This document shows positions 2,507 through 25,952 of a stretch of 64,000 nucleotides of DNA, one piece after another (position 1 is the stretch's first letter; the number at the start of each line of letters is the position of its first letter). Source of the DNA: Deltaproteobacteria bacterium (GTDB lineage: Bacteria > Desulfobacterota > Syntrophorhabdia > Syntrophorhabdales > Syntrophorhabdaceae); NCBI GenBank assembly GCA_022711595.1, contig JAKLET010000005.1:62001-126000 (forward strand), in the 5' to 3' direction. Position numbers and translations under genes: made by a program. The notes beneath the pieces were generated by a model. The model worked only from the letters and a program-made list of their open reading frames with translations. It searched no databases and had not been told where the DNA came from.

Positions 2507-2507
2507 A

Positions 2508-5161: not shown

Positions 5162-5172
5162 CGTGCTATAAT
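5145..5172 (+). promoter_or_regulatory. possible internal sigma-70 promoter before kdpD
   Basis: An exact TATAAT at 5167-5172 lies 16 bp after TTGGAA (4 of 6 for a -35 box). It would allow some expression of the sensor genes independently of kdpFABC. The -35 box is weak and overlaps the end of kdpC. Confidence 0.28.
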
Positions 5173-5195
5173 TGTGAAAAAAGGCCGTGACTATT

Positions 5196-6347: not shown

Positions 6348-8221
6348 CCCTGCGGATAAAACTGCTCATGGCCCAGACCCCTCTCATCGCGGCGCTTTTT
6401 TTCCTCGGCATCCTTTCAATGGCCACTACATCACGGATCGGTGACAGCAGCCAGATGATCCTGAAGGACAATTACCGGAGCGTCCTCGCCGTCCAGAAGA
6501 TGAAGGAATCACTGGAAAGAATGGATTCCGCGTCGTTGTTTGTGATGGAAGGGCTGCGCGGGGAAGCGGAACGGATATTCGCCGAACACCGGTCGCAATT
6601 CGAAGCCGAGCTTGCCGTCCAGTCGGGCAATATCACCGAAAAAGGCGAACATGATGCAACAAATGCGCTAAACGATTCCTGGCGACAGTACCGAAAAAAA
6701 CAGGACGAATTCCTTAATTTGCGCAGCCACACAAAAGAAAAGGCATTCTACTTCAGGGAGCTTTATCCCCTTTTCCAAACAATTAAGGCAACTGCAGACG
6801 GTATCCTCGCGACGAACCAGGATGCGATGGTCTTCAAGAGCGCCCTTGTCCACAAAAAGGCAAAAAATATGAACATCATCCTCGTCACGGCCTCCGCGTT
6901 GTTCATCGCCGCCGGCGTCTTTATCTCCGCGTTTCTCACCGCCTGGATCATCCGGCCCCTGGCAATATTGAGCCAGACAGCACAGCGGATAGGAGAAGGA
7001 GATCTGGGCGTCCGCGCCAATGTGAGAGGCTCTGATGAGATCGCTTCTCTGGCTGCGGATTTTAACAAAATGACGGAAAGCCTCTCAAGGTATCGGAGAA
7101 GTTCCCTTGGTGAGCTCATACTCACCCAGCAGTCATCCCAGGCAGTGATCGACAGCTTTGACGACCCGACCTTCGTATTCAGTGCTGAAGGGGGCCTGCT
7201 CATGACGAACAGGATGACCGAGACGATTTTCTCGACAAACTTTTCGTCCCCGCAAAATAATATTTTCGATGCTGTCCCTCCCGTTGCCAGGGATGCCATT
7301 AAAAAGGTGAAAGACCACATATTTTCCGGAAAGGGCCGCTACAATCCGAGAGGTTTCGATGAATCCTTCAAGACAGCTACAGCGAAAGGAGACATTGTCT
7401 TTCTCGCAAGGGGTGCGCCGGTTTATGAGATGGAGGGAGCCATCACCGGGGCGGTGATCATACTTCAGGACATCACAAAACTGACAAGACTGAGCGAACT
7501 GGGATATGACCTTGTCGCGACGGTGGCGCATGAGCTCAGAACTCCGCTCACTTCGCTCAGAATGGCCATATACATCTGCCTTGAACGCTCCGTCGGGGAC
7601 TTGAACGAAAAACAGCTTGACCTTCTCTATGCCGCGAGAGAGGATTGCGAAAGGCTTCAGACAATGGTCGACGAGCTCCTGGACATCTCTAGAATGAGCA
7701 CGGGCAAGATCGCCCTTGAGCTCAGACCCGTCGGTTCGGAAGAATTGCTGAAGGCCGTAAAAGTCCAATTCGATAATCTCGCGAAAGAACAATCCATACA
7801 GCTCAACTTTTCCGATCTGGCAAGGGGAGAGATGGTGCTCGCCGACCCTGAACGCATCCAGATGGTCCTGAACAACCTCGTGACCAACGCATTTCGTCAT
7901 ACGGCTCCCGGAGGTACCATAGAGGTCCGCAGCATACCCTGGACCGGCACTGTCAGGTTCGAAGTCGCTGATTCCGGTGCCGGCATTCCCGAAAAAGATC
8001 TTCCTCACATATTTGAAAGGTTCTTCAGAGGAACAGAAAACCCGGCGGGAGGGGTCGGATTAGGTCTCTCTATTGTGAAGAACATCGTTACCGCCCACAG
8101 GGGTGAGGTCGGCGTGGAGAGTGTCGAAGGGAAGGGAAGCACCTTCTGGTTCATCCTGCCCAAATATCATCCCGGATCCGACGTGGTGGACAGAGAGGAC
8201 AAGCGACGGGGAAAAGCCTGA
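6344..8221 (+). CDS. membrane histidine kinase (periplasmic sensor, HAMP, PAS, HisKA, HATPase) of the kdp cluster
   Basis: The 625-residue protein has two membrane helices (about residues 10-30 and 180-200) enclosing a mainly helical periplasmic region. HAMP, a PAS domain, a dimerisation domain with the phospho-acceptor His in VAHELRTPL and an ATPase domain (NNLVTNAFRH, DSGAGIP, GVGLGLSI) follow. It overlaps the short kdpD by 4 bp. There is no receiver domain; the NtrC-type regulator at the window start is the natural partner. The periplasmic region resembles chemoreceptor-type four-helix sensors rather than KdpD, so its signal may not be K+ itself. It ends the kdp gene string. Confidence 0.88.
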   Translation: MTLRIKLLMAQTPLIAALFFLGILSMATTSRIGDSSQMILKDNYRSVLAVQKMKESLERMDSASLFVMEGLRGEAERIFAEHRSQFEAELAVQSGNITEKGEHDATNALNDSWRQYRKKQDEFLNLRSHTKEKAFYFRELYPLFQTIKATADGILATNQDAMVFKSALVHKKAKNMNIILVTASALFIAAGVFISAFLTAWIIRPLAILSQTAQRIGEGDLGVRANVRGSDEIASLAADFNKMTESLSRYRRSSLGELILTQQSSQAVIDSFDDPTFVFSAEGGLLMTNRMTETIFSTNFSSPQNNIFDAVPPVARDAIKKVKDHIFSGKGRYNPRGFDESFKTATAKGDIVFLARGAPVYEMEGAITGAVIILQDITKLTRLSELGYDLVATVAHELRTPLTSLRMAIYICLERSVGDLNEKQLDLLYAAREDCERLQTMVDELLDISRMSTGKIALELRPVGSEELLKAVKVQFDNLAKEQSIQLNFSDLARGEMVLADPERIQMVLNNLVTNAFRHTAPGGTIEVRSIPWTGTVRFEVADSGAGIPEKDLPHIFERFFRGTENPAGGVGLGLSIVKNIVTAHRGEVGVESVEGKGSTFWFILPKYHPGSDVVDREDKRRGKA

Positions 8222-8226
8222 ACCGG

Positions 8227-8273
8227 CCGAACAGGAAAGTTATATATGGCCTCTCTGGTCAGTTCGGTTTTTC
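8227..8273 (+). terminator. possible terminator after the kdp-linked kinase
   Basis: CCGAAC (8227-8232) can pair with GTTCGG (8262-8267), directly followed by TTTTTC and then a longer T-rich stretch. The loop is long (29 nt), so the hairpin is weak. It lies between convergent genes. Confidence 0.35.
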
Positions 8274-8327
8274 TTATTTGTTTTTTTAAATAACCAAAAA
8301 ACTGTAAAAAAACCAGATTGAAAAGGT

Positions 8328-8822
8328 TTAATCGGTTTCCAGGAGCGACAGGAAGTATTCCTTTATCTCCGGCGTTGTTTCTGAAAAATCGAAGCGGTCG
8401 ATGAAGGCGGCGACGTCGAAGTCCTTGCCTTCCCGGAAAACGGCGTTCACGCGCGCGTAGACCTCACCCGCGGCATCTTCCACCCACGCCGTGGCAAGTA
8501 TGTTCTTTTCCTCTATCCCCAGGAGCTCGCCTTTGGCCCTGTAAAGGCTGTTGCACATGACGGGCTTGAAGAACTCCATCTCCACCTTTCTCGTCATGGC
8601 GATCTTTTTCGACCGCATGAATATAACATACCAGATGATCACGTCGAGGACACCGAAGATCATGCCGCCGTGGAGGACCTCCGCGTAGCCTTCGAAACGG
8701 TTATCGACAAAAAGATCACAGTAAACGATGCCGTCTTCGTAGAACATCTGCAGCTGGAGCCCGTCTTCCCTCTCAGGGCTTAAGAAAAATGATTTTTTGT
8801 ATGCGGGAAGCCTGCCGTTCAT
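8328..8822 (-). CDS. PaaI/4HBT-type hotdog thioesterase family protein
   Basis: The 164-residue protein has the single hotdog fold pattern of acyl-CoA thioesterases: the EVLHGGMIFGVLDVI helix near residue 50 (motif HGGM), then strands with EFFKPV and RAKGELLG. It lacks the usual Asp/Glu at the standard position of the central helix, so the substrate and activity cannot be stated. ATG follows AGAGGTGAC and overlaps the rlmN stop by 4 bp, so it is translated from the same mRNA. Confidence 0.75.
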   Translation of the reverse strand: MNGRLPAYKKSFFLSPEREDGLQLQMFYEDGIVYCDLFVDNRFEGYAEVLHGGMIFGVLDVIIWYVIFMRSKKIAMTRKVEMEFFKPVMCNSLYRAKGELLGIEEKNILATAWVEDAAGEVYARVNAVFREGKDFDVAAFIDRFDFSETTPEIKEYFLSLLETD

Positions 8823-9910
8823 GATGTCACCTCTGGAGATGTGGTCCGCTTCTTTCGCGGTGTATCGCCCTTGTCCGGAGCGCTCTCAAGGTAGCCCATG
8901 CCGAGCTGTCCGCAGGCCCCGCAGACATCCTGCCCTCGCGAATCGCGGATAATGGTCGTAAAGTAACGGTCGATGAGATGCTTGTGGAACCTGTCCACCT
9001 GCGCCCTCTCGGGTGTCTCGAATTCGGTATAGGATGATGCGTTGTAGGGTATGAGGTTGATCTTGCACTTTATGTCCTTTAAAAGGTCTGCAAGTTTTTT
9101 TGCGTCATCGAGGGAATCGTTGACACCCTTTATGAGGATATATTCGAAAGTGATCCTTGTCCTTTTGGTCCCCTTGAAATCCCTGACGAATTCCATTATC
9201 TTTCCAATGGAATAGAGCCTGTTGATGGGCATTAGCATTGAACGTGTCGCATCGTCGGCTGCATTGAGTGAGATGGCTATGACGGCCGATTTGGAGTCCA
9301 GGGCCCTGAGACCGTCGAGAAGCCCCACGGAAGAGAGGGTGATCTTGCGGTAGGAAAGATCGAGGCCGCCGGGGTCCTTCAGGATATCGAGGGCCGTCAT
9401 GACATTATCGATGTTGTCCATGGGCTCGCCCATACCCATGAAAACTATGTTGGTGACGGGACCCTTTTCGGTCTTTTTCAGGTGTTCCCTCACGGTAATG
9501 AGCTGCCCCACGATCTCGGCGGCATTCAAATTCCGCCTGAAACCCATCTTGCCCGTCACGCAGAACCTGCACCCCATCCTGCACCCTATCTGGGTGGAAA
9601 CACACAGGGTGGTACGTTTCTTTTCAGGCATGAGAACGCTTTCGATGATCTGGCCGTCATCGGCAACGAAGGCAAATTTTATCGAACCGTCACGGGAAGA
9701 AAGCGCCTGACTGATGGGCAGTGTCTTCAGCGAGAACATTTCACCGAAAATGGTGCGAAGCCCTTTCGGGATGTTGGTCATTTCGCTGAAATCAAGGTTG
9801 CCCAGATTATAGACCCAGCGAAACAGCTGTCGCGCACGGTATTTTTCCTTGCCCAGCGCGCCGATCTGCGCTTCGAGATTTGAAAGGGTGAGGCCGAAGA
9901 AATTTTCCAT
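8819..9910 (-). CDS. rlmN: 23S rRNA / tRNA adenine-C2 methyltransferase RlmN
   Basis: RlmN is a radical SAM enzyme that methylates A2503 of 23S rRNA and A37 of some tRNAs. At 363 residues it has the standard size. The cluster motif CRMGCRFCVTGKMGF near residue 115 holds the CxxxCxxC, MGMGEPMDN follows, and the two catalytic cysteines are expected at the Cys of the first motif region and in DVCGACGQLG near the C-terminus. GGAG lies 13 bp before the ATG. The gene lies downstream of two FecR-like genes on the same strand, 89 bp away. Confidence 0.95.
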   Translation of the reverse strand: MENFFGLTLSNLEAQIGALGKEKYRARQLFRWVYNLGNLDFSEMTNIPKGLRTIFGEMFSLKTLPISQALSSRDGSIKFAFVADDGQIIESVLMPEKKRTTLCVSTQIGCRMGCRFCVTGKMGFRRNLNAAEIVGQLITVREHLKKTEKGPVTNIVFMGMGEPMDNIDNVMTALDILKDPGGLDLSYRKITLSSVGLLDGLRALDSKSAVIAISLNAADDATRSMLMPINRLYSIGKIMEFVRDFKGTKRTRITFEYILIKGVNDSLDDAKKLADLLKDIKCKINLIPYNASSYTEFETPERAQVDRFHKHLIDRYFTTIIRDSRGQDVCGACGQLGMGYLESAPDKGDTPRKKRTTSPEVTS

Positions 9911-9999
9911 TGCGTTACAGGCTCTCCGGTGCGGATATTTGACCTTCAGACTGCTATACGATATCAGAAACGACTTGTTCTTTCAAGGTTTTCCGCGAA

Positions 10000-10947
10000 T
10001 CACCGTCTGTGATGGCGGCCATGATAGCCGCGGCCCGGACCAGGCCAGCCTCGATAAGGCCCCCGATACCTGTAGCCGCTGTACCAGTAACCGGGGCCGA
10101 TATAACCCCGATAACATGGGCCATACCAGCCGCCGCAGGGATATGACCGGTAATACCAGGGATAGTAATAGGTATTATAGACAGGCACGCTCTCTACGAT
10201 CACATACCCGCCTGCTGCCGGCTGCTGCCCGCTCACCGCTGGCCCTGAGGGGGAGACGGCCAGATCTCCCGCGGTGAGGCCCTGGCCCTGGCCGGGCGGG
10301 GGCTGTGCTTCCCTGTCCCTTGCCGCGTTCCACCTCTCCCATTCATCAGCAGGACTGGTTTTCGCATAAAGGGGGCTGTTTCCGTCCTTTTTCATGACAA
10401 GACGGTTCCCGGCGATGATCTTCATCTTGCCCTTCGGTTGCGCGACAAAAAGTTCCCCCGCGAGGACGGATACCTCCGTATCCCCTTTCGTGTTGACGTC
10501 AACACGGAAAACCGCCCTTTCGATGGCATCGATCTGTGCTGATGAGGTGCTGAGAAAGAGGGGGTACCCCTTGAGTCCCCTGAAGTTCACATGGGCCCTG
10601 CCTGCCTCCACGTAAAACTGGATGGCTGACCTTTCAACAGACAGGACCTTGATGCGGCTGCCCCTGGTTATCCGCATCAGGCTGCCGTCGCGCATCAAAA
10701 GCTCGGCATTTCCAGGATTGGTGATCCTCAGGGTATCTCCTTCAGCAAGGGACGTATTTACCGCGGCGGGGAGCCATCCTTTGGCGCCGGAAGGCAACAG
10801 CTGGACGCTTCCTTCGGTATAGCGCATATAGATAGAAACGCCTTCAGCGGCAAAAAGAGGTAAAGAAAGCAGAGTAAAGACAAGCCCTGCAATGAGTGTC
10901 CTGACGGTTGTGTTCACTATACCCTTTTCCTTTTCCAATTTTACCAT
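10000..10947 (-). CDS. secreted FecR-domain protein with Gly/Tyr/Pro-rich tail
   Basis: A signal peptide (core LIAGLVFTLLSLPLFAAEG) is followed by a FecR-like domain of about 130 residues, with the EGDTLRI and NAELLMRDGSLMRI strings. A linker comes next, and then a 60-residue tail very rich in Tyr, Gly, Arg and Trp. No FecA transporter or ECF sigma factor is nearby, so this is not a classical FecR. It is a shortened paralogue of the next gene upstream (10980-13262), with the same order of signal peptide, FecR domain and aromatic segment. The start is uncertain: a perfect AAGGAGGT lies 18 bp before ATG 10947, whereas GTG 10917 has AAAAGGG and would give a more typical signal peptide. Function unknown, perhaps envelope-associated. 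Confidence 0.7.
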   Translation of the reverse strand: MVKLEKEKGIVNTTVRTLIAGLVFTLLSLPLFAAEGVSIYMRYTEGSVQLLPSGAKGWLPAAVNTSLAEGDTLRITNPGNAELLMRDGSLMRITRGSRIKVLSVERSAIQFYVEAGRAHVNFRGLKGYPLFLSTSSAQIDAIERAVFRVDVNTKGDTEVSVLAGELFVAQPKGKMKIIAGNRLVMKKDGNSPLYAKTSPADEWERWNAARDREAQPPPGQGQGLTAGDLAVSPSGPAVSGQQPAAGGYVIVESVPVYNTYYYPWYYRSYPCGGWYGPCYRGYIGPGYWYSGYRYRGPYRGWPGPGRGYHGRHHRR

Positions 10948-10979
10948 CTTCGGCGTTAAATGTGTACCTCCTTCTCTCG

Positions 10980-13262
10980 CTAACGCCGTGCGGCATTCTG
11001 CTGTAATTGGGGTTTGCCGTCCTTGCCGGCTTCCGGCGGTTTTGCGCTTCCCGCTCCGGCGCCTTTGTTCGCTGGCGACACCGGCGCCTGCGGCGCGGGG
11101 GAGGAGACCGTGGCAGCCGGCAGGCTTTGCTTTACCATCTCGACCTTTTTCTGGACGGGTGTTTCCCTGCGCACATCGACGGGTTTTGCTTCAATACGCT
11201 GCGGGGCCTGGCGAGGCTGCTCCGGCACTTTAACGGTCTGTGCGGGCCGGGATTGGGCCGGGGCCTTGAAGGTCTGTGCGGGCGGCTGCGGATTCTGAGC
11301 CGGTCTCGTTGTCACCACGGCCGGTTTCTGCTGAACGGCAGTGGTCCTTGCGGGTGCCGGTACGCTCACCGTACTGTTAACGGGTACACTGCCCCGGACA
11401 GGTCCTGTTGCTGCAACAGGCGGTCTTTGCTGGATGGCCGCCCCCTGAGGCCCTGCCGTTCCAACCGCCGCATTATTATTCACATTCGGTGTGTTCGGCA
11501 GGCGTTTCTCTTCAACACGCACGGCAGCCGGCGTCGGAGGGACCGGCTTTGATGTCCCCTGGCCCTGTTTTTTGCCCTCGTCGATCCTCCTGACAACAGG
11601 AGTGTTCGGAACATTGCGTGCCTGCACACCCTGCTGTCCCGTCTTTACATCTGTATTGCGTGCATTATCGATACGGTCTTTAAGGGATACGGCCGCCTTG
11701 GGTGTCTGTACGTTCACCGGCACATCCTTCTCTTTAACAGCCATTCTGTTGTCGGGTGTGACCGTTGCCCTCCGGGCGGGCACAGACGGATCTTTTACCT
11801 TGCCGGACGCGGCTCCGGGCGTGCCAATGCCCTGTCCCTGTGTCGACGCGGCGGCGGGTCTTTGCAGCGCAGGTCTTTTCTCATCAACCTTTTGGACGGT
11901 TCCGGGACTTGTCTTTGCTATCGTCCCGTTCGTCCCGGGCTGACCGGCGGGTTTCTGCCCCGTGACAGCCTGACCCTGCGGTATTTTTGAACGGTCGAAA
12001 GCCTGCGGGGCGGCGGCCCTGGTGCGCGCGGGAACAACGTTTGCCGGCAGGCTCACCTTTTTCATACTGACCGGGCCGTTCTTTGCCACATTCACAGTGA
12101 CGGCCTTCTGCCGCAATAACCGGTCGCGTTCCACGGTCACCATGGAATTGGCAACACCGGCGTTCTTATAGGCGGTACGTGCCGTGCTCACAGACTTTGC
12201 CACGGTCACATTATTATAAATATTGTATATGTTCGTCTGGTTGATAACAGGCGCCTTGCGGCGGTCGTATGCCTCACCTGGGGCAAGCGGGACCCATCCT
12301 ACGTGTTTTGACGAATGCACCCATGCTACATGGGCCGGTTCCCACCGGACATGTCCTCTGGCGGGAGGCACCCAGCACCATCCGGCATGACGGTGATACG
12401 CCCAGCGTCCGTAATGATACGGCGCCCACCCCCAGGGTTCGTAACCTATCCACACATAGCTTCCCCTGATCCAGGCCCAACGGCCTGTCCGGTACGGGGA
12501 CCAGGTACCCACGGTGATGACAGTGGGGACCCAGACATAGCTGTATTCATCGGTATACACCCATTGTCCGTTGGTATCGAAATCAGATGAATATGTCCTG
12601 AGTTCCTCGGGAAGGTATGCGTTGCTTTCTCCGTAGCCGGCTGATGTCGATCCGTCCCTGTCCGTGTTCCAGCGCTGCCATTCGTCCGCACCGCGCAGTC
12701 CCGCAAGGACCGGTGCTGAACCATCCGCCCTCAGGACAATGCGCTCGCCAGCCTTGACGGGCATCTTGCCCTTTTGCTGCGCCGCGTACACCGTTCCCTT
12801 GTAGACCGATATCTCGCTTGTCCCGTCATCATAGGCATCGATCCGGAGAGTGGCGGGAGTTGCGATGTCCAGCGCCGCTGAAGAAGTGTCAAAGAAGATG
12901 GGCACCTCTTTGGAACCTTTCGCGTTGATATATGCCATGCCGCGGTCAAGCTTGAATTGTACGCCATTCTGTTCCACGGCTATGATCTTCATTGTGGAGC
13001 CCTTCCCGATGCGGACAAGGCTTCCGTCTTTCATTAAAAGCTCCGCCCTGCCTGTCGCGGCGGTCCGTATCGTGTCCCCTTCAATGAGAGGGGTATTGAC
13101 AGCCGCTCCCGTCCATTGTGATGATCCTGCCTCGGCAAGCTCCACGGCCCCTTCGATATAACGGACATAGAGGGTGTCCGGATCAGCCGCAAAGGCATGC
13201 ACCGCGACAAAGAGCAGCAAACCCGCCAGCATGCCCGCCTTCAACACATTCGAACGTTTCAT
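10980..13262 (-). CDS. secreted FecR-domain protein with Trp-rich (DUF6600-like) segment and long Pro/Ala/Gln tail
   Basis: The 760-residue protein has a signal peptide (residues 1-25) and a FecR-like domain (about 30-180). A strongly aromatic segment follows (about 240-330; repeated WxP and GRWAW-type strings such as YEPWGWAPYHYGRWAY), and then about 400 residues of low-complexity Pro, Ala, Val, Thr and Gln with the look of an extended surface spacer. The ATG is preceded by GGGG. It is the larger of two tandem paralogues, 32 bp apart. The Trp-rich segment resembles the DUF6600 proteins common in deltaproteobacteria; that name is from memory of the pattern. Function unknown. Confidence 0.75.
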   Translation of the reverse strand: MKRSNVLKAGMLAGLLLFVAVHAFAADPDTLYVRYIEGAVELAEAGSSQWTGAAVNTPLIEGDTIRTAATGRAELLMKDGSLVRIGKGSTMKIIAVEQNGVQFKLDRGMAYINAKGSKEVPIFFDTSSAALDIATPATLRIDAYDDGTSEISVYKGTVYAAQQKGKMPVKAGERIVLRADGSAPVLAGLRGADEWQRWNTDRDGSTSAGYGESNAYLPEELRTYSSDFDTNGQWVYTDEYSYVWVPTVITVGTWSPYRTGRWAWIRGSYVWIGYEPWGWAPYHYGRWAYHRHAGWCWVPPARGHVRWEPAHVAWVHSSKHVGWVPLAPGEAYDRRKAPVINQTNIYNIYNNVTVAKSVSTARTAYKNAGVANSMVTVERDRLLRQKAVTVNVAKNGPVSMKKVSLPANVVPARTRAAAPQAFDRSKIPQGQAVTGQKPAGQPGTNGTIAKTSPGTVQKVDEKRPALQRPAAASTQGQGIGTPGAASGKVKDPSVPARRATVTPDNRMAVKEKDVPVNVQTPKAAVSLKDRIDNARNTDVKTGQQGVQARNVPNTPVVRRIDEGKKQGQGTSKPVPPTPAAVRVEEKRLPNTPNVNNNAAVGTAGPQGAAIQQRPPVAATGPVRGSVPVNSTVSVPAPARTTAVQQKPAVVTTRPAQNPQPPAQTFKAPAQSRPAQTVKVPEQPRQAPQRIEAKPVDVRRETPVQKKVEMVKQSLPAATVSSPAPQAPVSPANKGAGAGSAKPPEAGKDGKPQLQQNAARR

Positions 13263-16031: not shown

Positions 16032-17987
16032 TTATTCCGGAACGGTTTTTCGCATATGGGGGGCGTAGACGGCGAATTTGTTCCTGCCGCTCATCTTGGC
16101 GTGATACATGGCGATGTCGGCGTTCTTAAGGAGCGTTTCCGTGTCATGACCGTCCTGTGGATACATTGAGACGCCAACGCTCGTTGTGACAAACAATTTG
16201 TGGCCTTCCAGTTCAAAACGGTCCTGGAATGCTGAAACGACCTTTTGCGCAACAATCGACACATCTTCCGGTTCAGACAGTTCGGGAAGGATGACCATGA
16301 ACTCGTCGCCGCCCATTCGGGCGACGGTGTCGCTCTTGCGGAACGTGTTTTCCAGCCTCTCCGCTACAGCTTTGAGAAGGAGGTCCCCTATATCGTGCCC
16401 TAAAACATCGTTCACTTCTTTGAACTTATCAAGATCGAGCATCATAACGGCAACGCTTTTACCGCTGCGAAGCGCGCCGGAGGCGGCCATGGTCAGGCGG
16501 TCATTGAAAAGGGCCCTGTTGGGAAGGCCGGTCAGGGTATCATGATAGGCCATGTGGCGTATGGTCTCCTCCGCCTTCTTTACCCTTGTGACATCACGTA
16601 TGATGCCGTGATAGCCAATGATCCCACCGTTCTTGTCTTTTTTTGTCGTCACCGTCACAAGGCAGTCCATCTGGCTGCCGTCCCTCTTTTTCAGCCTTAT
16701 CTGGTGGTCTTTAAGACACTCCGATGTCCTTATCATTTCTTTGAATCTGTTTCGTTCCTCATCATTCAGGTAGGCAACTTTCACATTGAGCCCGGAAAGT
16801 TCTTCCCTGGTAAACCCGAAAAGGTCCAGGAACGACTCGTTCACATCAACGAAGGACCCGTCCTTTTTTACTATATAAATAGCATCGCGGGTCTCGCCAA
16901 AGAGGGAGTGGTAGCGTTCTTCACTTTCACGCAATGCCTGTTCCCAGCGCTTTCTGGCGGTGACATCCCTGATGATGGCCTGGAGAAGGGCCTCTCCGCC
17001 GATCTCGATCCCGTTCAAGCTCACCTCTGCGTCGAAGAAGGTGCCGTCGCACGCCTGATGGCGCCATTCAAAATACTGCGGTCTGCCTTCAACCGCGGCT
17101 TTGGCCTTTTCAATGACCATTTCGCGCGATCTTGTTCCATCCGGCTGATACTGCGGGGAAAATTCGTGCGGACTGCGGCCTATGATCTCTTCACGGGCAC
17201 ATTTGAACATCTTCAACGTCCGTGAATTGCAGTCCATGAACTTTCCGTTCCTGATGATAAATATGGCGTCGTTGGCATATTCGAAGAGGACCCTGTACTT
17301 CGTGGCGCTTTCCTTGAGCTGCGCCTCCGCTTTTTTCTGGACGAAGGCGTTGGCAAAGAACTCGCCGATCATCCGAAGCAGCATGATCGTGTCGTCAGAC
17401 CAGGTCCTCCTGGTATTCACACTGTCAAATCCGAGAAAACCCACCAGAGAAAAACTGCGGGCCATGGGAACGACGATGAGGGACCGGATGCCTTCCCGTT
17501 CGAATTCCTCCCTCTCCCTGGCAGCTTCCGCGGGAAGCCCGGAGACATCGGGGACATGGATGATCTCGAGATTGTTCATCTTCTTGAGAAACCAGGGCAT
17601 GTCCTTGTATGTGATGCCCTGCAGCTTTTCGCGCTGGGATTCGATGCCGGGCGCGCACCATTCATGCGTGTTGTACATGGCATCGCCTGTCCCTCCGTTG
17701 GCCTGGAACACATAGCTCCTGTCCGCACCGGCATACTGGCCGATGATGCCCAGTATGTCGTTGACGCCGTCGTCGATATCCTCTGAAGGAAGATAGATAA
17801 AATTTGTTGACAGGTTGAAGATCAGCTTCAGGAGCTTTCTTGCATCATTGAGCGATCTCTCCAGAACATCGATGCGCTCATTCGGGGCCACTTTTGTGAC
17901 GGCCGGCGGCGGCGTCCGTACCTGGTTGACGCCATTTTTACGGTCCTTTTCAGAAAACAAAGCCTTTTTATCGCCCTTGTTTTCCAT
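16032..17987 (-). CDS. diguanylate cyclase with GAF and two PAS sensor domains
   Basis: Domains in the 651-residue protein run: a coiled linker, GAF (about 75-225), PAS (about 235-350), PAS (about 360-480), then GGDEF (about 490-645). The active-site loop is MGGDEF, and an RKSD inhibitory site lies five residues before it, so product inhibition by cyclic di-GMP is expected. There is no membrane span, so it is probably cytosolic and senses small molecules or redox through GAF/PAS. A PilZ receptor gene lies 15 kb away (32867-33568). ATG 17987 has only a modest ribosome site; a perfect AGGAGGT nearby serves a short upstream ORF instead (17968-18009). Confidence 0.92.
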   Translation of the reverse strand: MENKGDKKALFSEKDRKNGVNQVRTPPPAVTKVAPNERIDVLERSLNDARKLLKLIFNLSTNFIYLPSEDIDDGVNDILGIIGQYAGADRSYVFQANGGTGDAMYNTHEWCAPGIESQREKLQGITYKDMPWFLKKMNNLEIIHVPDVSGLPAEAAREREEFEREGIRSLIVVPMARSFSLVGFLGFDSVNTRRTWSDDTIMLLRMIGEFFANAFVQKKAEAQLKESATKYRVLFEYANDAIFIIRNGKFMDCNSRTLKMFKCAREEIIGRSPHEFSPQYQPDGTRSREMVIEKAKAAVEGRPQYFEWRHQACDGTFFDAEVSLNGIEIGGEALLQAIIRDVTARKRWEQALRESEERYHSLFGETRDAIYIVKKDGSFVDVNESFLDLFGFTREELSGLNVKVAYLNDEERNRFKEMIRTSECLKDHQIRLKKRDGSQMDCLVTVTTKKDKNGGIIGYHGIIRDVTRVKKAEETIRHMAYHDTLTGLPNRALFNDRLTMAASGALRSGKSVAVMMLDLDKFKEVNDVLGHDIGDLLLKAVAERLENTFRKSDTVARMGGDEFMVILPELSEPEDVSIVAQKVVSAFQDRFELEGHKLFVTTSVGVSMYPQDGHDTETLLKNADIAMYHAKMSGRNKFAVYAPHMRKTVPE

Positions 17988-18009
17988 GGTCCAAGCTTCC
18001 TGCTTTCAA
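17968..18009 (-). CDS. possible 13-codon upstream ORF overlapping the GGDEF gene start
   Basis: A TTG codon at 18009 lies 7 bp after a perfect AGGAGGT (18023-18017) and opens 13 codons ending TAA at 17968. It is out of frame with, and overlaps, the cyclase start at 17987. An in-frame stop upstream of 17987 excludes extending the cyclase to use this site. It could act by translational coupling or dampening. Confidence 0.3.
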   Translation of the reverse strand: MKAGSLDHGKQGR

Positions 18010-18276
18010 TGCAAATACCTCCTGCCCAGTTGTGGTCGACAATAGATGATCAGGTATCGGGCGCGGGCCGGCATCTTGCCTCATGCGTTTGTCACATATA
18101 GCGCATTCAGAACCGTGTCACCCCCGGCAGAACAGGGAACATATCTCCCGCATCCATTCTTTTTTATCGGTCCTTTGCTTCAAAAGATTAAGGGGCCGGC
18201 GCTGAAAAGGGCACCGCCGGTCAAGGAATTCATCCTTTTCAACGCCCTGTTTTTATGTTAAAAAAAGGAGCACTGC

Positions 18277-18381
18277 ATGAAGCTTAAAGGGGGTGCGGAA
18301 AAATACCCCTTAAAACCGGAAGGCCGACGGCACGGACCGGGACCGCGTGCAGGACAATTTAAGGCACACAATATTCCATGA
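18277..18381 (+). CDS. 34-residue leader peptide coupled to the following gene
   Basis: ATG 18277 lies 7 bp after AAAAAAGGAG, the best ribosome site in this part of the window. The 34-codon ORF is rich in Lys, Arg, Gly and Pro (starts MKLKGGAEKYP). Its stop overlaps the start of the downstream gene as ATGA (18378-18381), and that gene lacks a good ribosome site of its own. This arrangement indicates translational coupling. The peptide has no recognisable similarity. Confidence 0.5.
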   Translation: MKLKGGAEKYPLKPEGRRHGPGPRAGQFKAHNIP

Positions 18382-19304
18382 GACAACCGGCAAATTCTCA
18401 AAGAAGGGCCGAAAAGTTCTTCTATAACCAGATACTCCATCAACTCAAGGACCAATTCCTCGAGTTCATGAATGACCGATTTTCCGCACAGTTCCTCAAC
18501 GACAAGACAAAAAGGCTTGTTGACGATCTTATAAACAACATCGGCAACGTCCGCCTCGACAAGCTTAATTCCATACGCTTTTTTATCGAGCACGAGGATA
18601 TATTCGACAACGTTGCCGATGTTCTTCAGGGACTCCCTCAAAAAGACCGGATCAATGCCGTCCTCGGCAGCAGCGACATGTCGAGGAAATACTCCATCGC
18701 CCTCACCTTCAGGCCGCCAGGAGCGGAGCGTATGGCCGGAAAGCAGCTTGAGAATGACCCCGTCACGGTAAGCGTCATCATGGATGTGTTCATGCGATGG
18801 CTTGATTTTATCCGGCAACGCGAACAGTCTCTTGCCGGCATCCTTCGCGAACTCGAAAAAATAGAGATAAACGCCATCGAGCAATACAGCTGTCTTCCCG
18901 ACACCATAAGGGACATCACGCTGAATCTCAAGACCTATGGCGAACTGAGGGTCATCCTGGAAGATACCATGAACAAGACGCTGTCCCAGAACGACATGAA
19001 ACCCTCGGCAAAACGCTGGTTCTGGGAAAAGGTGATCGTCCAGGGCGTCGAACTTCTCAATGATTTTTGTCACGACGAACATTGTCCGCCTCAGGGTTGT
19101 ACGAAGGTCCACGATCTTGCCATAACGAAAACCGCCGAGATCCTTGCCATCCTTTACCCTCACCGTTATAACTGTGCCCCGGACTTGATCGCCTCCGAGA
19201 TAAAAGAGCTTTATTTCCGGATAAGATACCCTCGAAAAGACGAGGACAGCTTCATCAGGAACCTCTTTTCACGTTATGCCGACGAAGAAAAGAGAATGGC
19301 CTGA
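18378..19304 (+). CDS. unrecognised 308-residue soluble protein
   Basis: I do not recognise this family. The product is largely alpha-helical in character, rich in charged residues and Leu/Ile, with no signal peptide or membrane span. Near residue 230-245 is HDEHCPPQGCTKVHD, a His/Cys cluster that could bind a metal (H..HC..GC...H). The start is chosen because it overlaps the stop of a well-initiated leader ORF. The opposite strand also holds a long open frame (18258-19163), but its composition is less protein-like. No neighbour on the same strand suggests a role. Confidence 0.65.
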   Translation: MRQPANSQRRAEKFFYNQILHQLKDQFLEFMNDRFSAQFLNDKTKRLVDDLINNIGNVRLDKLNSIRFFIEHEDIFDNVADVLQGLPQKDRINAVLGSSDMSRKYSIALTFRPPGAERMAGKQLENDPVTVSVIMDVFMRWLDFIRQREQSLAGILRELEKIEINAIEQYSCLPDTIRDITLNLKTYGELRVILEDTMNKTLSQNDMKPSAKRWFWEKVIVQGVELLNDFCHDEHCPPQGCTKVHDLAITKTAEILAILYPHRYNCAPDLIASEIKELYFRIRYPRKDEDSFIRNLFSRYADEEKRMA

Positions 19305-19568
19305 TCATCACCTTATCCGGTTTTTCCACACCATCTGACTTTAAATAACGATCCCGATCCTGCAGAATTATTCCGTTATGATATGCTTCATCAGACATGA
19401 GCGGTCGGGGGGACCAAAACAATTTTCTTCATGGCTTCAGAGGATGCGCTCACTTCGGTGTACATTGAAATACCCTTTAATGACCGGTGCCGGATAAAAA
19501 ACGTTCCTGTTTTTTCTTGCCTCCTGGCCCTCACATCCGGGGCCTAAGAAACCCTCCGGGGCCGGCAT
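19305..19568. other. intergenic region without recognisable gene
   Basis: Between the unknown protein and the terminator of the nfnAB gene I see no open frame with a ribosome site, no promoter of note and no repeat. Confidence 0.6.
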
Positions 19569-19606
19569 AAAAAAAGGCGGGGCTGTCAGATGCCCCGCCT
19601 TTTTGA
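19569..19606 (-). terminator. bidirectional rho-independent terminator
   Basis: A 13-bp perfect stem AAAAAGGCGGGGC / GCCCCGCCTTTTT (19571-19583 and 19592-19604) with an 8-nt loop is flanked by A and T runs. It terminates the nfnAB transcript and can also serve the plus-strand gene ending at 19304. Confidence 0.92.
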
Positions 19607-19624
19607 CTCTATGATATTTTCAGT

Positions 19625-21892
19625 CTACTTCTTCAGTGTCGCAAGATATTCGTCGATCGCCTTTGCCGCCTTTCGTCCCGCACCCATGGCGAGGATGACG
19701 GTTGCCGCGCCTGTTACGATGTCGCCGCCGGCGAATACACCCTTGCGGCTTGTCTGGCCGGTCTCCTCATCAGCCACTATGTTGCCGGATTTCTTGAGTT
19801 CCAAGTTCGGGGTCGTAGATGTGAGGATCGGGTTCGGACCCTGGCCGATGGCGACGATGACAACGTCGACGTCGAGGATAAAGTTGGAACCTTTGATCTC
19901 CACCGGTCTTCTCCTGCCTGACGCATCCGGCTCACCGAGTTCCATCTTCACGCACTCCAATCCTTTGACCCAGCCTGCTTCATCGCCGACCACCCTGATG
20001 GGGTTCGTCAACAGCCTGAAATCGATCCCTTCTTCTTCCGCGTGATGCGCTTCTTCCGCACGGGCCGGCATCTCATCGCGGCTGCGGCGGTAGACGAGGT
20101 ACACATCGGCTCCGAGGCGCTTGGAAACCCTTGCGGAGTCCATGGCGACATTGCCGCCGCCGATAACGGCCACCTTGCTGCCTACCCTGATCGGCGTATC
20201 ATACTCAGGGAAGAGGTATGCCTTCATGAGATTCGCCCTGGTAAGGAACTCGTTGGCGGAATAGACGCCGTTCAGGTTCTCGCCGGGTATGTTGAGGAAG
20301 TAAGGAAGACCTGCGCCTGTTCCGATGAACGCGGCATCATAGCCCTGTGCGAAAAGCTCGTCCAGGGTCACGGTCTGGCCGACGATAGAGTCGACCTTTA
20401 CTTTGGCGCCAAGCTTTTCCAGATAGTCCACTTCACGCTGCACGATCGCCTTGGGAAGACGGAATTCGGGAATACCGTAAACCAGAACGCCGCCCGCCTT
20501 GTGGAGCGCTTCATAAATGGAGACTTCGTGACCTTTCTTCGTGAGCTCGCCCGCGACGGTGAGACCGGCCGGGCCGGCGCCGATGATGGCCACTTTCTTG
20601 CCCGTTTTCTTCGGTTTGGCCGGGACCCTCACATCGCCGAGACCGAGTTCATAGTCAGCCGCAAAACGCTCGAGGCGCCCGATGGCGACAGGTTCCGATT
20701 TCTTGCCGAGGATACATTTTGACTCACACTGCGATTCCTGGGGGCAGACCCTTCCGCAGACGGCGGGAAGGCTGTTCGTTTCTTTAATAGTATGGATGGC
20801 GCCCATGAAATCGCCTTCCTTGATCTTCTGGATGAACTGCGGTATCTGGACGTTGACGGGGCAGCCCTCAACGCACGGGGGCTTCTTGCAGCCCAGGCAG
20901 CGCTGTGCCTCCATCATGGCATTCTCTTTCGTGTAGCCAAGCGCAACCTCTGCGAAGTTCTGGATCCTCTGCTTCGGGGCCTGCTCCGGCATCTTCACCC
21001 GCTTGCGGGCCTTCTTTATTGCCTTTTCCTGCGCCTCGATCTTGCACTTGTGGTCCCAGAGGGCGCGCCTTTCTTCACGGTTGTACATCTTCTGGCGAAG
21101 CACCAGTTCCGGGAAATCAACGGCGTGGCCGTCGAATTCAGGTCCGTCCACGCAGACGAACTTTGTTTCGCCGCCGATGGTGGCACGGCAGCATCCGCAC
21201 ATGCCGGTACCGTCAACCATGATGGTATTGAGGCTGACCACGGTCTTGATCCCCGTCGGACGGGTCACGTCGCTGACGGCCTTCATCATGATGACCGGGC
21301 CGATGCCCACAACGAGGGCGATGTTGTTCGCACCGCGCTCTTCGATTATCTTCTTCAGGACATCGGTAACGAAACCATGGTGTCCGTAAGTGCCGTCATC
21401 AGTGGTAACGTGAACTGTTGTGCTCGCTTTTTTCATCTCCTCTTCAAGTATGAGCATTCCCTGGGTGCGGGCGCCGATTATGGAGATGACCTCATTGCCC
21501 GCCTCAAGGAGCGCCTTGGCGATGGGAAGGACCGGCGCAACGCCGACGCCGCCGCCCACGCAGACAACGGTGCCGAATTTCTCAATATGGCTCGGCTTGC
21601 CCAGGGGGCCGACAACGTCGATGAGCGCACTGCCCTGCTCGAACTTTGCGAGTTTCTGGGTTGACGTTCCCACTTCCTGGAAGATAATGGTGATGGTGCC
21701 TTTCTTGCGGTCGAAATCTGCAACGGTGAGCGGGATACGCTCCGCCATGTCGTCGCCGCGGACGACAACGAACTGTCCTGCCTTCACCTTTTTCGCGATG
21801 TCCGGTACGTAGAGCCTGTACATGGTGATCGAGGGAGCCAGAATGCGCTTCTCCACGATCTCGTTCAATTTGGTTGCTTTCTTAGTAGCCAT
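19625..21892 (-). CDS. fused NfnA-NfnB: NADH-dependent reduced ferredoxin:NADP+ oxidoreductase
   Basis: One 755-residue chain joins two normally separate subunits. Residues 1 to about 285 match NfnA (ferredoxin-NADP reductase-like, FAD and NAD folds, with the [2Fe-2S] string DGTGMCGCCRATIGG). Residues about 310-755 match NfnB, the GltD-like subunit: Cys-rich CLGCKKPPCVEGCP and CGRVCPQESQCESKC for two [4Fe-4S] clusters, FAD site IGAGPAGL and NADPH site IGGGNVAMD. Nfn couples NADH and reduced ferredoxin to NADP+ reduction by flavin-based electron bifurcation. Sulfide dehydrogenase (SudAB) is a close alternative. The start follows AAAAGGAG. It is last in line after the redox sensor genes and ends at a strong terminator. 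Confidence 0.88.
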   Translation of the reverse strand: MATKKATKLNEIVEKRILAPSITMYRLYVPDIAKKVKAGQFVVVRGDDMAERIPLTVADFDRKKGTITIIFQEVGTSTQKLAKFEQGSALIDVVGPLGKPSHIEKFGTVVCVGGGVGVAPVLPIAKALLEAGNEVISIIGARTQGMLILEEEMKKASTTVHVTTDDGTYGHHGFVTDVLKKIIEERGANNIALVVGIGPVIMMKAVSDVTRPTGIKTVVSLNTIMVDGTGMCGCCRATIGGETKFVCVDGPEFDGHAVDFPELVLRQKMYNREERRALWDHKCKIEAQEKAIKKARKRVKMPEQAPKQRIQNFAEVALGYTKENAMMEAQRCLGCKKPPCVEGCPVNVQIPQFIQKIKEGDFMGAIHTIKETNSLPAVCGRVCPQESQCESKCILGKKSEPVAIGRLERFAADYELGLGDVRVPAKPKKTGKKVAIIGAGPAGLTVAGELTKKGHEVSIYEALHKAGGVLVYGIPEFRLPKAIVQREVDYLEKLGAKVKVDSIVGQTVTLDELFAQGYDAAFIGTGAGLPYFLNIPGENLNGVYSANEFLTRANLMKAYLFPEYDTPIRVGSKVAVIGGGNVAMDSARVSKRLGADVYLVYRRSRDEMPARAEEAHHAEEEGIDFRLLTNPIRVVGDEAGWVKGLECVKMELGEPDASGRRRPVEIKGSNFILDVDVVIVAIGQGPNPILTSTTPNLELKKSGNIVADEETGQTSRKGVFAGGDIVTGAATVILAMGAGRKAAKAIDEYLATLKK

Positions 21893-21930: not shown

Positions 21931-23433
21931 TTACTTTCCATTTACCTGTTTTAAAGGCAGCTTAACGGTAAAGGTCGTGCCCTTCCCGATCTTGCTCTCA
22001 ACCTCTATGCGCCCGAAATGTGATTCAACGATCCTCTTTACGATGGACAATCCCAGTCCGGTGCCGGTCGTGTAACGCGTGCTTTCCCCCTGCACACGAT
22101 AGAACTCGTCAAAGATGCAGGGGAGACATTCTTCTTCAATGCCTATGCCCGTATCGCTTACGCTTATGCTAAGGTAATGCGCATCCGGCACGGCCCTGAC
22201 AACGACCTTGCCGTTCTTCACATTGTATTTCATGGCATTGGATACAAGGTTTGTGAGGAGCTGTTCCATCTCGGCCCTGTCGGCCTCGATGAGCGGCAGC
22301 TTTTCAGGTATGTCCGAAGCAAAGGAAACATCCTTCGTGGAGCCCTGAACCTTGAAAAGCTCGATGGTATTTCCTATGATCTCCGTCATATCGAGGAGCT
22401 CTTTTTTCCTTACCACCTTTTTTGTTTCCAGCTTCGCAAAGAGCAGGAGGTCATTGACAAGGTCCATGAGCGACCTTGCGCGGAGCTTTGCCCGCTCCAG
22501 CATCTGCTTGTTGAATTGCGGGTCTGTCCCCGCGACACCCGTGAGATAGGCATTGAGGTATCCCTCGATAGCCCCCAGCGGCGCCCGGAGCTCATGCGCC
22601 ACCATCCTCACGAACTGCGACTTCACCTCTTCGACCTCCTTGAGGCCGGAAATATCACGGAAGGTGCAGACAACGCCAAGATTCTGGCCTTTTTCATCGC
22701 GCACTCCCGCAACATTGACCATTAAGGTCTTCGGCGTCTCCCCGGAAAGCACCACCTCTTCCGAGATGATCGTATACTGGGAAAAATCAGGGGAAAACGC
22801 CTTGCTGATCACTTCAATAAGGTCCTTCTGTCTTATCGCCTTCTGAAAATCCATCCCTACCCCGGAGTCATCCACCCTGCCTGTTACGTTGAGCATCTTA
22901 AGTACGGCCGGGTTCCACAGCACAAGCTGGTGTTCGCGGTTTATGACCAGTATGCCGTCGGCCATGGAGTTGACGATGGTATGGAGCTTCGATTTCTCGC
23001 TTGCCACCTCGAGAAGCCTCTGGTCGCGCTCTTCGCGCAGCTTTTCCTTCTCTATGGTGAGCCGCCTCTTGTCAAGGCCCCGGTTCAGGACTGCCAGAAG
23101 CTGGTCCGGATTGAAAGGTTTGGGGATATAATCGTAGGCGCCGTGCTTCATCGCCTCAACGGCCGTCTCCACGGTCGCAAAACCCGTGATGACCACCAGA
23201 ATGATCCCCGGATCGATCTGTCTCACCTGTTCCATCAGCTCAAGTCCGCCCATGACGGGCATCATGAGGTCGACAAGGATCAGGTCATAGGGTTTCCCCC
23301 TGACCATTTCGAGCCCGGCCTTGCCGTTCTCGGCGACATCGACACCGTAACCCTCTGATGAGAGTATCCTCCGGCATCCTTCGCGGATCCCTTTTTCATC
23401 GTCTACAACAAGGATGTTGACAGTTTCCGTCAT
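21931..23433 (-). CDS. receiver-PAS-histidine kinase (REC-HK hybrid)
   Basis: This 500-residue cytosolic protein begins with a receiver domain (acceptor Asp55 in LILVDLMMP, KPF at about 104). A coiled linker and PAS domain (about 150-255) follow, then HisKA with His in VAHELRAPLG and an ATPase domain (NLVSNAMKYN, DTGIGIE, GTGLGLSI). A receiver placed before a kinase usually lets one kinase be tuned by another. It starts 16 bp after the lone receiver gene and ends 38 bp before nfnAB, so the set is likely one transcript. Confidence 0.92.
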   Translation of the reverse strand: MTETVNILVVDDEKGIREGCRRILSSEGYGVDVAENGKAGLEMVRGKPYDLILVDLMMPVMGGLELMEQVRQIDPGIILVVITGFATVETAVEAMKHGAYDYIPKPFNPDQLLAVLNRGLDKRRLTIEKEKLREERDQRLLEVASEKSKLHTIVNSMADGILVINREHQLVLWNPAVLKMLNVTGRVDDSGVGMDFQKAIRQKDLIEVISKAFSPDFSQYTIISEEVVLSGETPKTLMVNVAGVRDEKGQNLGVVCTFRDISGLKEVEEVKSQFVRMVAHELRAPLGAIEGYLNAYLTGVAGTDPQFNKQMLERAKLRARSLMDLVNDLLLFAKLETKKVVRKKELLDMTEIIGNTIELFKVQGSTKDVSFASDIPEKLPLIEADRAEMEQLLTNLVSNAMKYNVKNGKVVVRAVPDAHYLSISVSDTGIGIEEECLPCIFDEFYRVQGESTRYTTGTGLGLSIVKRIVESHFGRIEVESKIGKGTTFTVKLPLKQVNGK

Positions 23434-23449: not shown

Positions 23450-23851
23450 CTACCCCTTTTTCGCCTTCTCGATGAGGGCGTTTATCCTTTTTACCAGTTC
23501 TTCCGGCTCCACGGGCTTGCTTACAAAGTCGTCCGTTTTCATCCAGTAGCCGTCCTGGTCCTGAGTGAAATCATACCCGGTCTCGCCGGCGACGGCAGAG
23601 ATCATCAGGATGGGGATCTCTTTGTAACGGGGGTCCGCCTTGATGGATTTGGCGAAACTGAAACCTGTGTCGTGCTTCTCCAGCATAAGGTCGAGGAGGA
23701 TGAGATCGGGCGCGTCGAATTGCACCTTGTCCATGCCCTCCCGGGCGGAGAAAGCTGTTTCGACCTCGAAGCCGTTGTTTACCAGGACTGCCTTGTTGAG
23801 ATCAACGAAATCGACGTCGTCATCAATGATTAAGATTCTTTTTTGTGCCAT
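23450..23851 (-). CDS. single-domain response regulator (receiver only)
   Basis: A CheY-like receiver of 133 residues with the acidic pair IIDDD at 8-12, acceptor Asp54 (ILLDLMLEK) and the conserved Lys in VSKPVEPEE. There is no output domain, so it is a phospho-relay intermediate or acts by protein contact. Its start lies 29 bp inside the 3' end of the sensor-kinase gene in another frame, which implies tight co-translation. Confidence 0.92.
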   Translation of the reverse strand: MAQKRILIIDDDVDFVDLNKAVLVNNGFEVETAFSAREGMDKVQFDAPDLILLDLMLEKHDTGFSFAKSIKADPRYKEIPILMISAVAGETGYDFTQDQDGYWMKTDDFVSKPVEPEELVKRINALIEKAKKG

Positions 23852-25952
23852 AGTTCCTTCTCCCTGTGTTTATATTTTGAGTTGCCGCTAAAACTTTAGC
23901 CTTTGTCTGCGTCCTCCCGCCGCTTACGTCCACGGGCAGGGTGATAATGAACGTGCTTCCTTTCCCCATCTCCGTCTCGACGTCTATCTGGCCGAAGTGC
24001 CGCTCCACGATGCCATAGGAAATGGCGAGCCCGAGCCCGGTCCCTTTCTCCTTGGTGGTGAAAAAGGGGTTGAAGAGCTTGCTGACGTGTTCGGGCGTGA
24101 TACCTGGTCCCGTGTCCTTGATCTTGATGCTGATCACGCCGGCATCATGGGCCGTGGTGATCGCGAGAGACCCTCTTCCCTCCATCGCCTGGGCCGCGTT
24201 GAGCATGATGTTGAGAATTACCTGCTTGAGCTGTGTGGCATCGGCAAAGAGCGTGGGGATATTGCTGCCGAAGGTCTTTTTGATCTTGATGTTTTGGAAC
24301 AGGACCTGGTTCGCTATAAGACTCAACGTTTCCTCGATGAGGTCGTTGATGTCGGTGTCTCCCGGTTTGAGCTTCGTCTCCCGGGCAAAGCTCAAAAGCC
24401 CCTGAACGATCTCCTTTGTCCTGTTCGCCTCGCTGATTATCAGATCGATGTCTTCCTTTCTCGGGTCATCGGCATCGAGCGACTTATTGAGAATATGGGC
24501 ATATATGGTGATCGTGCCGAGGGGGTTGTTGATCTCGTGGGCCACACCCGCGGCGAGCTGCCCAAGGGCGGCAAGCTTTTCCGTCCTGATGAGCTGGAAC
24601 TGGGCCTGCTCCAGTTCCTGGTGCGACCGCTGGAGCTCCTTGTGAGATTTTTCAAGCTGCTGGTAGATAAGCTTGCTCTCTTCCAGCAGATAAGGAAGGC
24701 AGTATTCGGCCTCCGATATCCCCTGAGCAACGGCAACCGCTTTTTCCCAGCATGTCTGGTAGCCACAGGCGCGGCAATCGAGGTTGTTGTGCGGAGGCAG
24801 CTTGATGATCTTCTTCAGCACGGAGCGTATCTGTTCCTCCGTGGGAATGGGAAGCTGCTGGACATCGGGCTTGAAGGTGCGTGTGAGTCCGACGGCGGAA
24901 TACTCTTTCATGATCTTTTGCAGCATCAGGGCGCTCCGGGGATTGATCTGCGACTTGGCGTAACGCGATACGATCTGTCTGCGTCCCAGTATGGAGAGCT
25001 CCCGGTCGACAAAGGGGCCGTCCACACAGCCGTCACAAAAGACAAGGTCGAGGAATTTTGCCTGAATATATCCTTTCGCAAGCTGGTTGAGCGCGGCAAT
25101 GACCCTTCTCCGCCCGTAGGCGACGCTCACCTGGTCGACAAGTACATCGAAGCTGTGCCCAAGGGCCCTGTTGACACCGCCGATAACGGAAATGATCCTC
25201 CCGAGGGCGGGCACATCGCCGTCAAACGGTGCCTCGTCAACCTTTCTCGGGTCGATCCCTGCCTCGGCAAACATGAGCCTCACATCACGGAAGGTGATGA
25301 CATGGTCCACAGAGTCGGCTATTTCCCTGATGCTTATCTCTCCCATCCGCGCGAGGCACGGGGAGATATAGACGACCCGCCAACCGCTTCCCTTCGCCTT
25401 CTTGATGATCCTTCCAGCGGCCACCATGGGGGACACGATGGGGGCCAGGTTGCCGATAAGCTGCGGGAGGTATTTCTGGATATAGAAAACAATGACGGGA
25501 CAGAAAGAAGAAATGACGGGGTGCTCCACATTACTTGCGAGAAACTTTCTGTAAGCCACGCTGGTCAGCTCCGCGCCAACGGCGCCTTCCCATACCTCGC
25601 TGAATCCCAGCTCCTTTAGGGCAAAGCTGAGTTGACCGGGACTCACGCTGTCAAAAACAGCCGGGAAAGCAGGGTCGATACAGGCGATGACATTTTCGTT
25701 CGCCTCGATCGACCTCCTGACCGTACCGGCATCGCTCTCATATGCCATCGCCTGGTGCGGGCAGGCGGTGATGCAGTTGCCGCAGAGTATGCAGCGCTCC
25801 GGAATGATCCTGATGGATTCTTTCTCCAGCTTGATTGCCTTTGCGGGGCAGAGCTGGACGCAGTAGAAACACCTGCGGCACTTGTGGTTGTTGACCTCCA
25901 CCCTGGGATATGCCCGGCGTTCTTCTGTTATTGGATCGCGCACCGTATTCAT
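23823..25952 (-). CDS. [FeFe]-hydrogenase-like iron-sulfur sensor histidine kinase
   Basis: The 709-residue protein starts with a 2[4Fe-4S] ferredoxin (Cys25, 28, 31, 35 and 54, 57, 60, 64). An [FeFe]-hydrogenase large-subunit-like domain follows (about 85-345) with the degenerate motifs SSFCP (Cys151), SPCLARMGE (Cys199) and FCDGC (Cys306, Cys309). A four-Cys Fe-S domain (393, 396, 401, 418), a coiled coil (about 420-455) and a kinase with His472 in AHEINNP come next. The Cys equivalent to the proton-transfer residue of active hydrogenases is Phe150, so it is more likely a redox or H2 sensor than an enzyme. It has its own promoter and heads a string of receiver, REC-kinase and nfnAB. Confidence 0.88.
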   Translation of the reverse strand: MNTVRDPITEERRAYPRVEVNNHKCRRCFYCVQLCPAKAIKLEKESIRIIPERCILCGNCITACPHQAMAYESDAGTVRRSIEANENVIACIDPAFPAVFDSVSPGQLSFALKELGFSEVWEGAVGAELTSVAYRKFLASNVEHPVISSFCPVIVFYIQKYLPQLIGNLAPIVSPMVAAGRIIKKAKGSGWRVVYISPCLARMGEISIREIADSVDHVITFRDVRLMFAEAGIDPRKVDEAPFDGDVPALGRIISVIGGVNRALGHSFDVLVDQVSVAYGRRRVIAALNQLAKGYIQAKFLDLVFCDGCVDGPFVDRELSILGRRQIVSRYAKSQINPRSALMLQKIMKEYSAVGLTRTFKPDVQQLPIPTEEQIRSVLKKIIKLPPHNNLDCRACGYQTCWEKAVAVAQGISEAEYCLPYLLEESKLIYQQLEKSHKELQRSHQELEQAQFQLIRTEKLAALGQLAAGVAHEINNPLGTITIYAHILNKSLDADDPRKEDIDLIISEANRTKEIVQGLLSFARETKLKPGDTDINDLIEETLSLIANQVLFQNIKIKKTFGSNIPTLFADATQLKQVILNIMLNAAQAMEGRGSLAITTAHDAGVISIKIKDTGPGITPEHVSKLFNPFFTTKEKGTGLGLAISYGIVERHFGQIDVETEMGKGSTFIITLPVDVSGGRTQTKAKVLAATQNINTGRRNYGTKKNLNH

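Follow-up and report, generated by a model that had tools for sequence, protein, structure and literature searches.

We describe a 308-codon gene within a 64,000-nucleotide stretch (the window) of contig JAKLET010000005.1, from a Deltaproteobacteria bacterium of the family Syntrophorhabdaceae. It is best read as an accessory gene of mobile-element origin that probably encodes a zinc protein binding nucleic acid; its 5' end would have been replaced, and its translation perhaps depends on reinitiation. We put the probability of this reading at about one half. The case connects an orphan gene with an as yet unnamed module found in integrative elements, and offers a testable example of an upstream ORF with an ATGA overlap arising and possibly rescuing a gene that had lost its start.

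The initial annotation had described a 34-codon ORF with a strong AAGGAG ribosome site, ending in an ATGA overlap with a 308-residue ORF that has no ribosome site of its own. The coordinates and the Shine–Dalgarno (SD) sequence check out (Table 1): the ATG at 18378 overlaps the leader TGA as ATGA, and no SD-like stretch was found ahead of it. On the opposite strand, a 301-codon frame (18258-19163) is also open. On the plus strand of 17950-19650, neither a promoter-like nor a terminator-like site turned up in a simple scan.

Table 1. Features of the window and of related loci (window coordinates unless a locus is named).
Feature	Position	Strand	Remark
Upstream neighbor, GAF/PAS/GGDEF protein	16032..17987	-	V-type ATPase operon in this place in relatives
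AAGGAG SD of the 34-codon ORF	18265-18270	+	six bases ahead of ATG
Upstream ORF (leader), 34 codons	18277..18381	+	TGA (18379-18381) inside ATGA; not conserved
308-codon gene with C-terminal zinc-type module	18378..19304	+	homologues; dN/dS about 0.2; no family match
Gene part with recognizable DNA homology to same-genus genes	18399..19304	+	blastn against G011; against G002 from 18408
Module at the C-terminus (residues 205-281) with a helix, a (C)H-x3-C-x4-C-x3-H loop, a second helix that ends near YP and a third helix	18990..19220	+	seven-row alignment, model, profile controls
Putative metal ligands C231, H232, C236, C241, H245	19068..19112	+	alignment
Convergent neighbor, Fer4_20 / pyridine-nucleotide oxidoreductase with DHODB-type Fe-S domain	19625..21892	-	conserved neighbor in the genus
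Conserved V-ATPase 5' region, minus-strand loci	L034 8543-8632, L009 5682-5771, L035 3376-3465, L085 6086-6175	-	
Conserved V-ATPase 5' region, plus-strand loci	L033 10858-10947, L086 748-837, L087 797-886	+	

Homologues of the long ORF were found in five of the 60 genomes searched (the window genome counted), all of one genus; a search of 12 genomes of the genus returned the same five, and 46 genomes of the order returned these plus one weak match, G020. The four other genus genomes match over the full length (G002, 56% identity to the window protein), in two pieces each (G011, 68 and 60%; G006, 52 and 62%) or as a remnant (G007), and G006 also carries a distant 252-codon relative elsewhere (locus L030, entered also as L008). 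A scan of genome contigs matched ten stretches, one of them a relative, L009, from the MAG Deltaproteobacteria bacterium UBA5756. Nei–Gojobori dN/dS in the gene frame, calculated with our own script on synonymous sites near or at saturation and with two of nine pairs giving no value, was 0.206 for window–G002, 0.208 for G002–G011N, 0.209 for window–G011C, and 0.110 and 0.274 for the two window–G006 pieces. Changes between the window and G002 are distributed 90/75/155 over the three codon positions. The opposite-strand ORF was rejected as a real gene, with values of 1.03, 0.98 and 1.75 in its frame; another minus-strand frame gave 0.29-0.40, yet it contains 5 to 16 stops and has its third positions in common with the gene frame.

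The same-genus homologues, together with a dN/dS of about 0.2 against 1.0-1.7 in the opposite frame, indicate that the 308-codon ORF is a real, narrowly distributed bacterial gene. Lack of any homologue combined with a coding potential below that of the opposite strand had been named beforehand as grounds for abandoning it; homologues exist, and the plus frame is favored. No family in Pfam, NCBIfam, PHROGs or PADLOC fits the window protein (best PHROG E 0.17), and no Rfam family reached its gathering score in the window or in four loci. Phage and plasmid records held no match for the window, L031 and L032 proteins, nor phage records for the L030 protein, and viral contigs yielded no relative of the window or L030 protein. 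With homologues, constraint and no family match, the earlier view of the product as a real protein of no nameable family with a His/Cys cluster stands.

The 5' end differs from that of the relatives. Between 17988 and 18398, blastn finds no DNA similarity to the same-genus loci. Ahead of a conserved QRRAE the proteins of G002, G011 and G006 have 24, 24 and 23 residues, against seven in the window, where the relatives' starts are placed at a common MTxxKLA; the G002 frame is open further upstream, with GTG and ATG codons. The three relatives thus appear to start 16–17 codons further upstream than the window gene. None of them has a counterpart of the 34-residue leader, so that the long gene of the "real two-gene unit" proposed earlier finds support and a conserved pairing does not. 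Neither the leader DNA nor the interval 18020-18420 has any other match at E <0.1 in the 12 genus genomes. In G002 and G011, the frames that stop at the start of the gene or shortly ahead of it offer GTG as their only start codon, 2–15 codons back; in G006, a 21-codon ATG ORF ends in ATGA, with no clear SD and in a frame different from that of the corresponding G002 ATG. The ATGA arrangement is accordingly not conserved in these three relatives.

Several origins of the leader were considered and set aside. Homology of its peptide to the relatives' N-termini was rejected, since shuffles matched the score 613 to 1953 of 2000 times, and a repeat was rejected as its source, there being no second copy in the genome. 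A frame-0 similarity upstream of the ATG is weak and broken by a TAA at 18360; of 5000 shuffles, 262 reached the joint score and 116, 821 and 1190 the scores for G011, G002 and G006, and it was judged too weak to serve as evidence. Because DNA similarity starts only at 18399, the upstream gene differs and the three relatives have no leader, the leader is a local feature, most simply the result of a replaced 5' end.

How often such a layout arises by chance was estimated from ATG-started frames of at least 100 codons on both strands, scored for an upstream ATG ORF of 20–60 codons with an SD-like stretch, ending in ATGA. In the window, 42 of 121 frames begin with ATGA, and at eight of those 42 a 20–60 codon ATG ORF ends there; only the ORF at 18378 itself also has an SD-like stretch on the short upstream ORF. 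The same layout occurs once among 257 frames in 11 fetched loci, in a shadow frame opposite the conserved redox gene. With 2 of 378 frames showing it, the layout is uncommon, but chance could reach as far. This bears on the proposal that the 34-residue ORF is a functional regulatory leader peptide of attenuator type, or a genuine small partner protein. Attenuator peptides have a run of one amino acid. The strong SD, its good spacing and the exact ATGA overlap would suit such a role, but the ORF has no such run, no Pfam match, no counterpart in the three relatives and no DNA match at E <0.1 in the genus besides itself, and the RNA structure of 18230-18420 is ordinary (z -0.47); we regard the proposal as quite improbable.

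In the relatives, the slot of the gene is flanked on one side by a V-type ATPase operon (with V_ATPase_I and AC39 subunits) and on the other by the redox gene, which we take to be Nfn-like. The window genome has a single match to the ATPase C subunit, on another contig and at 45% identity. Across the 12 genus genomes, the gene is uninterrupted in two (the window genome, G000, and G002), broken in two (G011 by a frameshift, G006 by an out-of-frame deletion in its interior), left only as 3' scars in three and untraced in three, and two are without data. The scars measure about 190 nt in G007 and about 40 nt each in G010 and G005, the latter lengths being taken from where blastn similarity to G002 begins. 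No recognized trace of the gene occurs in G003, G008 and G009; the two without data are G004, which ends at a contig end, and G001, in which no orthologue of the redox gene was recovered. An assembly error could account for the single-base shift in G011, and is a less likely cause of the deletions. The tally indicates that the gene is being lost in the genus, and the window copy may be decaying too, as the gene is broken or a scar in five of the nine other inspectable genus genomes and untraced in three.

The window copy could indeed be an early pseudogene, untranslated since a rearrangement removed its start region, in which case the leader with its ribosome site and its ATGA would be coincidence. 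Its N-terminus is shorter than those of the relatives, the faint upstream similarity is cut by the TAA at 18360 (though joint shuffles reach it 262 of 5000 times), the gene is often broken in the genus, no SD precedes 18378, and the layout has a chance rate of 2/378. Against decay, all 308 codons are still open although synonymous sites are near saturation, dN/dS for window–G002 equals that for G002–G011N, and the metal ligands are kept. On balance we consider a pseudogene rather unlikely, and prefer a gene that would still be translated behind a replaced 5' end.

Two further features, one in related loci and one in the window, were observed in passing. The 5' region of the V-ATPase operon is strongly conserved in seven genus genomes (CTCTTATCACTCCTGCATCCG...AAAGGGTGATGAGAAATGTGG; Table 1) and folds into a long hairpin; because 15 of its 21 predicted pairs never vary and only one shows a two-sided change, the hairpin is without covariation support. 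Rfam returned no match over this region (at the gathering score in L009 and L035-type loci; at E up to 1 in L085 and L035), and the window contains no exact copy of its core. It is possibly a riboswitch-like or operator element. Within the window, one minus-strand protein (23823-25952) fuses Fe_hyd_lg_C, the large-subunit domain of iron-only hydrogenase, to HisKA and HATPase_c of histidine kinases, and adjoins a response-regulator kinase (21931-23433); the two look like a sensory hydrogenase pair.

The protein ends in a probable zinc-binding module. The Cys/His cluster had been noted near residue 230 as H-x2-HC-x4-GC-x3-H; the cluster is there, but its spacing was misread, since the window has HC-x3-GC, and the full motif is C231-H232-x2-H235-C236-x4-C241-x3-H245. 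The putative ligands also require revision: position 235 varies across the seven aligned modules (H, G, E, A, T, G and K), and C231, which had been omitted, is Cys in six of seven and Ser in L031. C236 aligns in six modules, with the Cys of L032 one position later, and K212, H232, C241, H245, Y260 and P261 are invariant in all seven. The general pattern is (C)H-x3/4-C-x3-5-C-x3-H between two predicted helices, followed by YP. AlphaFold2 models the module at a mean pLDDT of 84, falling to about 70 in the loop, and arranges three helices around the Cys/His loop (module positions 7-27, 38-55 and 64-75); its model of the whole protein is unreliable (pLDDT 47).

The module recurs in three distant proteins, at L030, L031 (genome G020) and L032 (genome G122). 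A profile of the four genus modules alone, its rows drawn from the joint alignment of all seven, recovers L030 at E 4e-14, L032 at 1.2e-11 and L031 at 0.026; the last falls to 4.9e-5 once L030 joins the profile (2161 frames searched). None of 5000 shuffles of L031 exceeds 14.3 bits, and L031 itself reaches 23.0. Among 395 sampled genomes of the phylum, ten matched the module profile at E 0.01, of which G000, G020 and G122 are convincing, and six matched profile A1 at that level; for G122, family and class comprise the same two genomes each. Matches of profile A1 in G231, G346 and G411 (E 0.003-0.009) were dropped as no such motif was seen on reading, and seven matches of profile A2 (E 3.6e-5 to 0.009) were dropped as most are interrupted or unlike the motif. 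Short frames in two distant genomes (L044 1501-1659 and L049 1501-1599) carry CH..C..C..H-like strings, CHEKPCRPRCDKIH and CHGYIVCTGCNRIH, which are perhaps old remnants of the module or chance. PDB sequences gave a best E of 0.2 with profile A1, searching PDB and viral folds with the model of the module gave no match at E 0.001 or below, and in a second fold comparison of 87 chains the best Z was 5.3, a common level. We infer that the module probably binds one zinc ion and acts on nucleic acid.

Relatives of the module point to integrative elements. At L030, a tyrosine integrase gene (Pfam 1.4e-18) adjoins a tRNA-Leu (2315-2398) whose 3' end is repeated, 2344-2399 at 9568-9623 and 2351-2400 at 11971-12020 (98% each), so that attachment repeats, integrase and tRNA gene occur together. 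The module gene (8639-9394) lies inside the 7.2-kb element, just within its far end, and upstream of small genes and a CHC2-primase-type gene (zinc finger 1.4e-23). The interval 2300-12020 holds two tandem integrations at tRNA-Leu. The 7.2-kb element, which carries the integrase, HTH and CHC2-primase-type genes, comes first; behind it, between the second and third repeat, lies a segment that contains an AbiE-like pair (AbiEi_2 5.9e-12; AbiEii below the cut-off). At L031, the module gene follows a small HTH_17-like gene (below the cut-off) near a serine recombinase (4.1e-30) and precedes a gene for 80 residues that has a homologue within the L030 element (43% over 75 residues, E 8e-17); the next gene has no family match. 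L032 ends at a contig end and gives no context. Around the window gene, the ten neighboring proteins (8.8-26.7 kb of the window) include no integrase or other mobility family, and no attachment repeats with an integrase were found, repeats being sought within 17900-19650. As the module is common to proteins encoded in or near integrative elements, an element of this kind would be the most likely source of the window gene.

The element kin, and the patchy presence and scars of the gene, would also fit a regulator or defense factor of satellite-like elements that hosts keep for a while, for example against other elements, and this would account for the repeated loss. No PADLOC model matches the window protein, and it carries no functional signature; we give this role only a slim chance. 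The preferred account is of an accessory gene of one bacterial genus, derived from an integrative element, whose product would be helical (in the low-confidence model) and whose C-terminal module of helix, Cys/His loop and helix would bind zinc and act on nucleic acid. In the window species, the original 5' end, roughly the first 17 codons and the promoter region, would have been lost and unrelated DNA placed in front, as the missing DNA similarity upstream suggests. A short ORF that has a strong ribosome site, and that probably arose by chance, ends in ATGA at the first remaining ATG, and since the ATGA lies exactly there, termination–reinitiation from the 34-codon ORF would be the most likely route to the protein. 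The fuller version, in which an element-borne zinc-module family was taken over by the host lineage and a chance short ORF rescued the lost start by reinitiation, we hold to be unlikely. If true, the rescue would be a snapshot of the birth of a leader ORF; the seven-sequence alignment can seed a new family model.

Three known systems invite comparison. Coupling through ATGA overlaps is established: a study of overlapping gene pairs reports strict coupling in 13 of 14 tested pairs, an SD contribution that varies widely between genes and, at one point, substantially lowered reinitiation upon SD removal (PMC6728339). The window pair resembles ATGA pairs coupled by termination–reinitiation in its four-base stop/start overlap and the SD at its first ORF, but the first ORF has only 34 codons and is not conserved, and the second start has no SD.

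The CCCH zinc finger has three Cys and one His in the order C-x4-15-C-x4-6-C-x3-H. The window order C-x4-C-x4-C-x3-H comes close to these eukaryotic RNA-binding fingers, such as those of Nab2 (PMC3874189). The spacing also fits L030 and L032, and L031 matches zf-C3H1 below the threshold (12.9 bits, cut-off 20.9, E 0.099). The module differs in being a single copy between two predicted helices, in the C-x4-C-x3-C-x3-H spacing of three genus members and in the Ser that replaces the first Cys in one of seven modules (L031); neither the window protein nor its module matches a Pfam family, and no match to a curated CCCH model exceeds the cut-off. A literature search on prokaryotic CCCH fingers found no paper, a negative that carries little weight.

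The third comparison is with small tRNA-integrating elements of satellite or island type. The window gene differs in standing alone between housekeeping-type genes, whereas its relative at L030 lies inside such an element, upstream of a primase-type gene, and that at L031 lies near a serine recombinase.
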